Assembly (NCBI GenBank): GCA_016218045.1
Contig: JACRFB010000040.1
Coordinates: 62,001-126,000 of the forward strand
From: Ignavibacteriota bacterium
Lineage (GTDB): Bacteria > Bacteroidota > Ignavibacteria > SZUA-365
Direction: 5' to 3'
Length of the DNA stretch: 64,000 nucleotides
Shown here: positions 57,664-60,355 of the stretch, in pieces
Numbering within the stretch: the first letter of the stretch is position 1
Layout of the letters: every line of letters starts with the position of its first letter
Translations under genes and position numbers: made by a program
The notes under the pieces: generated by a model
Told to the model about the DNA's origin: nothing
The model's input: only the letters and a program-made list of their open reading frames with translations
Databases searched by the model: none

Positions 57664-57880
57664 GCCGGAGTCGACACAGTGGCCGTCTCCTGACTCCTCA
57701 CACGAGTGTTAGGAGTCAGGAGGAAGGAGACAGGAGGAACGACTTGTCTCGGTGGCCGTCTCCTGACTCCTGTCTCCTGTATCCTTACGCACATGGAGCA
57801 GATCGATCTACTGATCTACCCATCTACCAACTACCCATCTACCGGGTACCAAATCCTCACACGAGCGTGAGGAGTCAGGA
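57664..57880. repeat. Composite family A + family B repeat, left of the kelch gene
   Basis: Contains GTCTCCTGACTCCTCACACG, its complement with GTGTTAGGAGTCAGG, GGAGACAGGAGGAACGA, and CTACCCATCTACCAACTACC. Bases 57711-57880 align without gaps to 60118-60287 (offset 2407), with a few substitutions before 57779 and near the right end. The central 85 bases are practically identical. It separates convergent phoA and kelch genes and may act as terminator for both. Confidence 0.85.
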
Positions 57881-57902
57881 TACACAGACAAAAGGTTTGA
57901 GT

Positions 57903-59843
57903 TTATTCTACCACACGTCGGAAGATCAACGCCAGACCGTCTTTGCACGCGTACAACCAATACCCACGCCAGGGAACGCCCTTGTCACCTGCATCGACGT
58001 AATACTCGCGGCATTTGCTATCAGGTTGAGTGGCGTAGACAGATGGATCGAAATATTTCATGGGTAGCTTTATCCATCCCTTTCGTTTTGCATCGTCGAG
58101 AGCCCGTTCCTCCCCGCCTTCGCGGATGCGGGCATGCGTAGAGAGCGGGCCGCCGAACTCGAATGGCCAACCGACGCAGTTCCATCCCTGTCGAAGCGAA
58201 ACGACTGCACTATCGTGCCGATATCCTGCCGCGCGAATCGTTCGAGATTGGGGATGAGGATTCCACAGCCAGACACCCTGGGAGGGGCGTAATGTGTCAC
58301 ACGTACCATATTGCGCATTCGTTCCATACTGTACCGCATGAACAGGATCAACAGCCAGATCGACACAAAAATATCCGCATGGAGACGCGTCATGCGGTGT
58401 GACAGCAGGTGCGAGCATGGTCCACCCAGCCGATGACGTAGTAGCGGAAACGAGAAAAGGAAGCGCCGGTTCGAGTCGCCACAGGTCGCGATATACTCCC
58501 GGCGACGTGCCGCCCATAAACCAGAATATGCCCTCATCGTCGCGCGTGCTCGCGAATTTGGAGAATGAACGAGGTGTGTTTCGTGCATCACGGACTCCCT
58601 TCACTCCGCTATACCCGGCGGCGCCTTGTGTGAGAGATCCCTTCAACCACACCCATTGGCGGGATTCAGGGAGAAAGGCCCACACATCGTTCCTCGACGT
58701 TGCTCCACCCTGTTTTTCGATCGCACCCCCAAAAAGCCAGAACCTGCCTCCGTCATCCATCCAACAAGAGAATGCGCTTCGGGCACCGGGTGTGTTCTCC
58801 TTTGCCGGCCATCCCTGCGTGCCGCCGTGTACCGGTGAATCCGGTTCCGGGGATCCATGGACCCATTCCCATTGACCACGTGTAATGTCGAAACGCCAAA
58901 GGTCGTTGCATGAGGCCATTTTCTCCACCGTCACTCTTTCGCTACCCCCGTACAACCACACGTCCCCGGTTTCATCAACCGCAATACCGGTGAGTATCCG
59001 ACCACCCGGGTGTCGATCCGTGGCTCCATAGGAGGCCCGAGTGTTTATGGTTTTTGTACCAGCCATCCACGTCCATCGCTGTGTCGAAGGATCGTACATC
59101 CAGAGATCTGCTAACGTCCCTTTGACGGTTGTGTCAGCCATTCCATATCCACCGTACATCCAGAATCGTCCGCGTGAATCCGTCGCACATGCGGCGCTTG
59201 TGCGGGCTCCCGGGAATGCGGTATCGGACGCAACACCGATAGGACCGTATCTACCTTTGACATACTTCTTGCTGGACCCACCCATCCACGTCCAATTTCC
59301 GCCACCTGCTTGTGAGTACATCCACAGGTCATTGAGAGCGCCGGTATCACTAAGCGAATCCAAGCCCCAGCCGCCAAAAAGCCACAAACGACCGGTATGA
59401 TCACGCCACGCCGCAGATCCACCCCGCGCGCCGGGTGTATTCTCACGACTGGGCGTACCCATGACGCCGTATCGCGGTGGTGCTCCAGCCGAGTCCGCAC
59501 CCGACATCCATGTCCACTCGCTTGTGCGCGCATCCCATCGCCAGAGGTCGTTCCCGTTTCCACCCGGTGGTGTCGCGTCGAAGATCAAACCGCCGAATAT
59601 CCACATGTTTCCGGTTGTATCGGCCCACATTGCGCAATCGTGCCGCGAGCCGGGGATGTTGTCCTTATGAGGCACGCCGAGCGTTCCGAAACGACCCGGT
59701 TTATTCGACTGCAGATCTCCGTGCATCCAGGTCCACATGGGGACGCCGTACCGTTCCTGTGAGAACGCTGTTGGAACATGGACACAAGCCATCATGACGA
59801 ACATCCATACTACACATTCAGACTTCACCCTGAAATACACCAT
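57903..59843 (-). CDS. Exported kelch-repeat protein
   Basis: 646 residues. Signal peptide CVVWMFVMMACVHVPTAFSQ. Six or so kelch blades recur with GRxGxxGVPxxxNxPGxR, then DxxGxxWxFGG and NDLWxWD..xxWTWM: for example MWIFGGLIFDATPPGGNGND, RLWLFGGWGLDS, RFWMYGGYGMADTT, DVWLYGGSERVT, RFWLFGGAIEKQ, IFWFMGGTSPGVYRD. The C-terminal 180 residues have GWTMLAPAV, GWNCVGWPFEF and RGYWLYACKDG, and there is no T9SS tail. The DNA is visibly lower in G+C than the surroundings and the gene is bracketed by direct repeats. Confidence 0.88.
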   Translation of the reverse strand: MVYFRVKSECVVWMFVMMACVHVPTAFSQERYGVPMWTWMHGDLQSNKPGRFGTLGVPHKDNIPGSRHDCAMWADTTGNMWIFGGLIFDATPPGGNGNDLWRWDARTSEWTWMSGADSAGAPPRYGVMGTPSRENTPGARGGSAAWRDHTGRLWLFGGWGLDSLSDTGALNDLWMYSQAGGGNWTWMGGSSKKYVKGRYGPIGVASDTAFPGARTSAACATDSRGRFWMYGGYGMADTTVKGTLADLWMYDPSTQRWTWMAGTKTINTRASYGATDRHPGGRILTGIAVDETGDVWLYGGSERVTVEKMASCNDLWRFDITRGQWEWVHGSPEPDSPVHGGTQGWPAKENTPGARSAFSCWMDDGGRFWLFGGAIEKQGGATSRNDVWAFLPESRQWVWLKGSLTQGAAGYSGVKGVRDARNTPRSFSKFASTRDDEGIFWFMGGTSPGVYRDLWRLEPALPFLVSATTSSAGWTMLAPAVTPHDASPCGYFCVDLAVDPVHAVQYGTNAQYGTCDTLRPSQGVWLWNPHPQSRTIRAAGYRHDSAVVSLRQGWNCVGWPFEFGGPLSTHARIREGGEERALDDAKRKGWIKLPMKYFDPSVYATQPDSKCREYYVDAGDKGVPWRGYWLYACKDGLALIFRRVVE

Positions 59844-59898
59844 GGATCACCCCGTTGTTCGAGAGGTTCATCGCAGGAAAAACTATGAGTGTGACGGG

Positions 59899-59906
59899 AG
59901 AATATA
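59899..59906 (-). promoter_or_regulatory. Candidate -7 element of the kelch gene promoter
   Basis: TATATTCT on the minus strand, about 55 bases before the start codon, in the small A+T-rich gap between the gene and the right-hand repeat block. The upstream partner is TTT and not TTG, so it is a weak match. Confidence 0.3.
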
Positions 59907-59982
59907 TCACACCTGTCTATCCGAAAAAAAACGGCTATCATTTGTCCAATTATCGACAGGGAAAACGAATTGACACTGTGGC

Positions 59983-60355
59983 TGTCTCCTGTCTCCTGTC
60001 TCCTGTATCCTCACACCAGCGTGAGGAGTCAGGAGGAAGGAGACAGGAGGAACGACTTGTCTCGGTGGCCGTCTCCTGTCTCCTGTCTCCTGTCTCCTGT
60101 ATCCTCACACGAGCGTGAGGAGTCAGGAGGAAGGAGACAGGAGGAACGAGTTGACACGGCGACGGTCTCCTGACTCCCGTCTCCTGTATCCTTACGCACA
60201 TGGAGCAGATCGATCTACTGATCTACCCATCTACCAACTACCCATCTACCGGGTACCAAATCCTCACACGAGTGTTAGGAGTCAGGAGGAAGGAGACAGG
60301 AGGAACGAGTTGACTCGGCGACTGTCTCCTGTCTCCTGTCTCCTGTATCCTCACA
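59983..60355. repeat. Family A repeats with family B insert, right of the kelch gene
   Basis: At least three family A palindromes (centres near 60015, 60112 and 60272) of the form TCCTCACACGAGCGTGAGGA, each followed by GTCAGGAGGAAGGAGACAGG. A CTACCCATCTACCAACTACC block lies at 60222-60250. It fills most of the 572-bp space between the kelch gene and the next gene. No coding region is supported. Confidence 0.85.

Follow-up and report, generated by a model that had tools for sequence, protein, structure and literature searches.

Two REP/BIME-like hairpin arrays of a lineage-specific family flank a single Kelch gene in an Ignavibacteriota genome

REP and BIME elements with a GTAG tag are dispersed intergenic palindromes (REPs measuring 20–40 bp) that are clustered, form species-specific families and prefer sites downstream of genes and convergent gaps; TIRtrons, with their TIR-associated tyrosine transposases, are treated in the same work (Di Nocera et al. 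2013, PMC3733652). Intergenic direct repeats of heptamers, for example TAACTGA, occur in Beggiatoaceae, Cyanobacteria and some Bacteroidetes (MacGregor 2015, PMC4679880). In Burkholderia thailandensis, RecA-dependent duplication of a 208.6-kb region takes place between directly repeated IS copies (PMC9946442), and 23S rRNA intervening sequences (IVSs) are selfish elements with an S23p ORF (PMC4990558). A locus in an Ignavibacteriota genome touches on all of these. Its preliminary description, based on a 64,000-nt window (the whole stretch of DNA analysed), reported a gapless pair of same-orientation repeats 2407 bp apart around one complete gene, compared the unit with integron attC cassettes and MITE-bounded elements, and read it as a mobile or exchangeable cassette.

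The repeat pair and the single gene within it are both borne out. When the two blocks are aligned, the left copy (57685–57880, + strand; repeat family D1) matches the right copy (60092–60287, + strand) directly over 196 nt at 93% identity, without gaps and at a spacing of 2407, and the longest exact word common to the flanking blocks is 94 nt. The heptad seed GTCTCCTGNCTCCTG is found 20 times in the window, where 0.02 occurrences would be expected, and a chance origin of the match is excluded. Between the repeats, an ORF on the minus strand (57903–59843) encodes a 646-aa protein with Kelch repeats (matches to PF24681, PF13418 and other domains) and an N-terminal signal-like segment, in which neither an NCBIfam match nor a T9SS tail was detected. 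Each repeat copy is part of a longer array. The left array (57656–57909, unstranded; outer ends degenerate, limits approximate) consists of a linker, a hairpin unit, a GATC/CTACC block and a half unit, that is about one and a half units (57656–57893) that become degenerate up to about 57909 and overlap the Kelch stop codon, and it occupies the entire gap from the alkaline phosphatase stop to the Kelch stop. The right array (59955–60369, unstranded) is longer, with about four hairpin units and one internal CTACC block. A cap block at 57795–57851 (+ strand), in which GGAGCAGATCGATCTACT is followed by NNCTACC heptads, is identical at 60202–60258 in the right array, and the arrays have the same left boundary (first linkers alike) and the same second linker (24 nt identical). 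Insertion of the Kelch gene into an existing array, splitting it, would explain why the left array ends and the right array starts near the same unit position, and why the Kelch stop codon lies within degenerate array sequence. However, because both sides keep the matching boundary linker and CTACC block, the arrays look like two copies of one array and not like the halves of a split one; the agreement in phase would arise by chance about one time in five, and no convincing target-site duplication was found. We therefore regard a split array as improbable. The assembly consists of 72 contigs, several of which end within or near arrays (C20, C44, C41, C50), and short-read collapse at the 94-bp exact repeat could alter array lengths, but the Kelch gene would still touch a repeat on both sides.

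The Kelch gene is foreign-looking and is predicted to encode a secreted propeller protein. Its synonymous codon usage is atypical, at the 7th percentile of 953 ORFs, and its G+C, 56.8%, falls at the 10th percentile of genes, whose median is 61.0%. The lower G+C previously noted relative to the flanks holds against the left neighbour (64.0%) but not against the right (55.9%), and the probable promoter that had been ascribed to the gene finds no support above chance, a single weak sigma-70-like match (59976–59949) comparing with 2.1 expected in shuffles. To the left lies a gene of the alkaline phosphatase family (PF00245; 56517–57641, + strand), and to the right a hypothetical gene with no Pfam match (60416–60898, − strand), followed by a Flotillin/SPFH gene (61089–62480, + strand) used as synteny anchor. 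Flotillin and the aminotransferase next to it are kept together in all same-family genomes with a retrieved locus, and in these genomes no Kelch ortholog was found beside the pair. The phosphatase and the hypothetical gene are likewise absent beside flotillin in relatives, so the entire stretch is variable. The best Kelch homologs in the same family reach 44% identity at most, over part of the protein, with none at the Kelch locus, and across the phylum homologs are patchy (2 of 394 sampled genomes at E<=1e-20). Kelch is probably a laterally acquired accessory gene; that the repeats were its carrier is not implied by the data.

The two flanking repeats belong to a lineage-specific family of tandem hairpin arrays that lie between genes and resemble REP/BIME elements. 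The Kelch-flanking block has 182 BLAST matches across its own 4.77-Mb genome, and the heptad pattern occurs 194 times on each strand, with no occurrence of a reversed control. In the 1.67 Mb read (35% of the genome, in regions partly chosen for arrays, with genes called crudely by a simple script), we counted 58 arrays of at least 90 nt, only two of which overlap called genes. They are built of tandem hairpin units of roughly 87–100 bp, in which a TCCTCACACGAGCGTGAGGA-type centre is flanked by arms of degenerate heptads (NNTCCTG in one arm, AGGANNC in the other), and many finish in outward NNCTACC heptads behind a GATCGATC junction. A further array of the family in the window (37975–38323, unstranded) has three units and a CTACC cap and is not bracketing. 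Convergent gaps hold 18 of 51 arrays, compared with 72 of 409 gaps overall, and adjacent genes lie with their 3′ side to the array in 56 cases and with their 5′ side in 38. Among 60 relatives searched, the exact family is essentially confined to its own genome, and two sister-genus genomes bear simpler GGCAGGA heptads. Single units fold strongly (z about −7.5). At the variable heptad positions, pairing within units is 0.30 against 0.415 in arms shuffled among arrays, with about 0.2% of shuffles as low, as though perfect long palindromes were avoided in this genome. With arms that lack covariation and pair below the shuffled level, perfect pairing is thus not the conserved property, and an RNA function through conserved pairing is unsupported; Rfam returned sub-threshold microRNA look-alikes only, which are typical of any long hairpin. 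Other repeats also occur in the window, namely a nine-copy CGTCTGATCGTCTAAC array of another degenerate octad family (44630–44778) and a 155-bp tandem repeat (46092–46450) of 2.3 copies with 96% matches, which has no relation to the heptad arrays. In a genome of another family of the class (G019), AAGTAGT and AGGAGGA heptads are mixed in one tract at a contig start (positions 1–330).

The family is like REP/BIME elements in being high-copy, extragenic, palindromic and clustered, with a preference for 3′ ends and convergent gaps. A REP hairpin carries a GTAG or CGTC tag at its foot; GTAG/CTAC tracts border or cap the arrays here, but on units of another size and architecture. The family differs from REP/BIME elements in these units, which are much longer and made of degenerate 7-mers, in the lack of covariation between arms and in the absence of a RAYT match above cut-off. 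As with TAACTGA, there are many intergenic sets of 7-bp repeats that are not known to be mobile. However, that system uses one fixed heptamer, mostly just upstream of starts, whereas here the heptads are degenerate, form inverted arms and prefer 3′ ends. The Kelch repeats resemble the B. thailandensis IS copies in that direct repeats offer homology for copy-number change without a transposase, although there the unit is a 208.6-kb region between IS elements and here it is one gene between non-coding arrays, with a predicted activity only. In the open literature searched we found no exact description of this architecture, in which degenerate heptads make up inverted arms and perfect pairing is avoided, and no direct match in work on heptamer arrays in Ignavibacteria, IVP units or array-bracketed cassettes.

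Arrays of this intergenic family resemble their neighbours. On a normalised similarity score, pairs within 6 kb average 0.54, whereas the median of the remaining pairs is about 0.35; none of 5000 permutations reached 0.54. The Kelch arrays are reciprocal best matches and rank third among neighbour pairs and fourth among all pairs; the highest score falls to C20/C44, a pair spanning two contig ends that may be a single array. Arrays cluster in space as well, with 13 adjacent pairs within 4 kb against 4.8 expected, and for every neighbour pair of at least 84% identity the best alignment is the direct one (six clusters if C41, at 76%, is included). Four sibling arrays lie in neighbouring gaps over 7 kb of C46. 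On C41, the bracketed gene shares its exact C-terminus and terminator with the gene that follows the second array on the right, which shows that gene and array were duplicated together; within the stretch concerned (L091:7688–10477) a T9SS-sorted gene, its array and its terminator are repeated in tandem, and the contig end truncates the duplication. Since the similarity between neighbours is general and same-oriented, local array duplication is its simplest cause. On this account a copy of one array, keeping its orientation, would end up in the adjoining intergenic gap, no more than a few kilobases off; alternatively, unequal exchange mediated by RecA or replication would duplicate the array along with sequence next to it. 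As arrays persist in intergenic sites alone, a lone gene separating two gaps would become ‘bracketed’ through local copying. The direct repeats at Kelch are long enough for homologous recombination (94 nt exact within the 196 nt at 93%), and the tandem duplication on C41 lends indirect support to RecA-dependent copy-number change. The Kelch pair presumably arose by the same local copying as the other siblings, with RecA as the putative agent. No homology was seen between the non-array flanks of the pair, where copying left no trace beyond the arrays. Our best account, which we consider somewhat more likely than not, is that sibling REP/BIME-like arrays arose by local duplication around an accessory gene.

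Bracketing of this kind recurs in the genome. Matched flanking repeats were found at 27 of 1210 genes scanned, among which Kelch is third strongest, and the other strong cases are a T9SS protein in the window, T9SS-tailed genes on C41, C46 and C59, a Y1 transposase and an IVP gene. The second bracketed gene of the window (41006–42985, − strand) encodes 659 aa with a T9SS type A sorting domain (TIGR04183). Its left array (40844–40976, unstranded) belongs to a different motif family (GAACGTGGAAAGTGG...TTGCTAC) and matches the right array (43054–43346, unstranded; three 96-bp units) directly at 97% over 100 nt, with 86 nt exact. The layout at 40844–43346 is like that at Kelch, with one unit on the left and three on the right, in an unrelated motif family. 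Going by the PF18962 list, three of the eight direct brackets that score highest enclose T9SS-tailed genes (p = 0.005), and the C59 gene, through its TIGR04183 match, makes a fourth. This enrichment is modest and partly explained by gap size, as it weakens when the count is confined to genes whose two gaps each reach 150 bp (2 of 3, p = 0.013, with p = 0.08 for all brackets). The bracketed genes of C41 and C46 are homologs at distant loci (52% identity), and their arrays are not each other’s closest.

Among nine IVP genes (PF05635), six have inverted heptad- or octad-like tracts on either side, with a separate motif for each gene, and a seventh lies between arrays of the family that flanks Kelch. 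Such bracketing of IVP (23S rRNA IVP, four-helix-bundle) genes by private-motif tracts is seen both in this genome and in the sister-genus genome G001. The genes belong to the S23p/IVP family, like IVS elements, but unlike these they are intergenic and lie within private heptad or octad arrays, and Kelch is not an IVP gene. In the sister genus, one gap with the same gene neighbours is occupied in G001 by an IVP gene flanked by inverted heptad arrays (L240:4990–5601) and in G005 by a GIY-YIG-like ORF between other inverted repeats (L279:1820–2457), the latter assigned by reading of the sequence, with no NCBIfam match. The finding of different bracketed genes in one gap indicates turnover, in this lineage, of single genes enclosed by repeats. 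As a class, array-adjacent genes are not atypical (Mann–Whitney p = 0.10), and the repeat is rejected as a general marker of foreign genes; most arrays bracket nothing special.

The Y1 case could point to REPtron/TIRtron-type mobility, in which an IS200/RAYT-like Y1 transposase would spread the arrays and the brackets would reflect its activity. The Y1 gene at C46:36065–36400 has sibling arrays on both sides, at distances of 390 and 406 bp, in the region where arrays are densest, and its inverted-repeat borders resemble those of TIRtrons and TIR-associated tyrosine transposases. However, it is the only array-flanked one of five Y1 matches, and its immediate borders are inverted GTCGCCC/CCCACGCC repeats, which are another repeat family. 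GTCGCCC hairpins also border the Y1 gene of C50, without AGGANNC arrays nearby, so the cognate ends of the C46 gene are probably the GTCGCCC/CCCACGCC borders. Against RAYT models the Y1 proteins either score under the cut-off or give no match (30.9 and 23.4 bits for NF047646, cut-off 80). The Y1 transposase as cognate mobiliser of the arrays is thus weakened by its own different borders, and we find mobility of this type doubtful for the Kelch bracket. On C46, the tandem hairpin borders and the Y1 gene together span 35344–37184, themselves between sibling AGGANNC arrays, and a transposase-less copy of the border repeats follows an array at 30045–30443.

Taken overall, the cassette interpretation of the Kelch locus is partly supported. 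For it speak the rarity of bracketing, the atypical codons of Kelch, the lack of a flotillin-side Kelch in relatives, the selfish type of other bracketed genes (Y1, IVP) and the sister-genus gap that swaps bracketed genes. Against it, array-adjacent genes are typical, most arrays bracket nothing special, neighbouring arrays show a general, directional similarity of the kind expected from local duplication, no cognate recombinase was found, and the sole array-flanked transposase has different immediate border repeats. A BLAST search of the genome, as the preliminary description had proposed, found the composite block common to both flanks at the Kelch locus only and never around other genes, which means that these ends do not serve different cargo. 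The comparison with attC cassettes and MITEs fails on specifics. The locus shares with them a single gene between palindrome-bearing repeats, but RYYYAAC and GTTRRRY cores are absent from both arrays on both strands, nothing consistent and no target-site duplication longer than 6 bp was found near any tested boundary, the cargo is not in a cassette series, and the number of array units is variable. An integron gene cassette or classical MITE-bounded composite is accordingly very hard to credit.

The main rival to local copying is homology-driven exchange or amplification through the arrays, which we think unlikely yet worth keeping in view. Kelch and array DNA would have integrated by homologous recombination into a resident array (Campbell-type), giving array–gene–array, so that arrays would serve as common homology to gain, lose and amplify accessory genes as exchangeable units without a dedicated recombinase. 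Whole direct arrays on both sides, with the same unit phase at their start and matched linkers, fit such integration, as do the atypical, patchily distributed Kelch gene with no syntenic ortholog, the enrichment of strong direct brackets in T9SS-secreted genes, the second bracketed secreted gene of the window in another repeat family, and the homologous bracketed genes of C41 and C46. It is set back by a block never found around other cargo, by the typical character of array-adjacent genes and by C41 and C46 arrays that are not mutually closest, while T9SS genes may simply sit in larger gaps. Slightly less likely still is the broader proposal that degenerate heptad arrays are general exchange borders, within which selfish (IVP, Y1, GIY-YIG-like) and secreted (Kelch, T9SS cargo) genes would be gained, lost and swapped as bracketed units in intergenic gaps without a site-specific recombinase. 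Local copying alone has against it that bracketed genes are not a random sample, with T9SS-tailed genes frequent among the strongest direct brackets, Kelch atypical and IVP and Y1 genes over-represented. Nevertheless, local copying of the arrays accounts for the bracketing, which is real and recurs elsewhere in the genome, better than a dedicated gene-cassette system does.

Should local duplication be the correct reading, a single gene between matching repeats need not be a cassette, and dispersed arrays together with selection against gene disruption would yield the bracketed pattern. A predicted consequence is that the 94 exact bases in direct repeats should let RecA delete or duplicate Kelch. 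If the exchange reading is right, genes for secreted proteins would turn over in Bacteroidota-related bacteria without an integrase. On either reading, the genome offers several testable bracketed genes, two of them within one 64-kb window.
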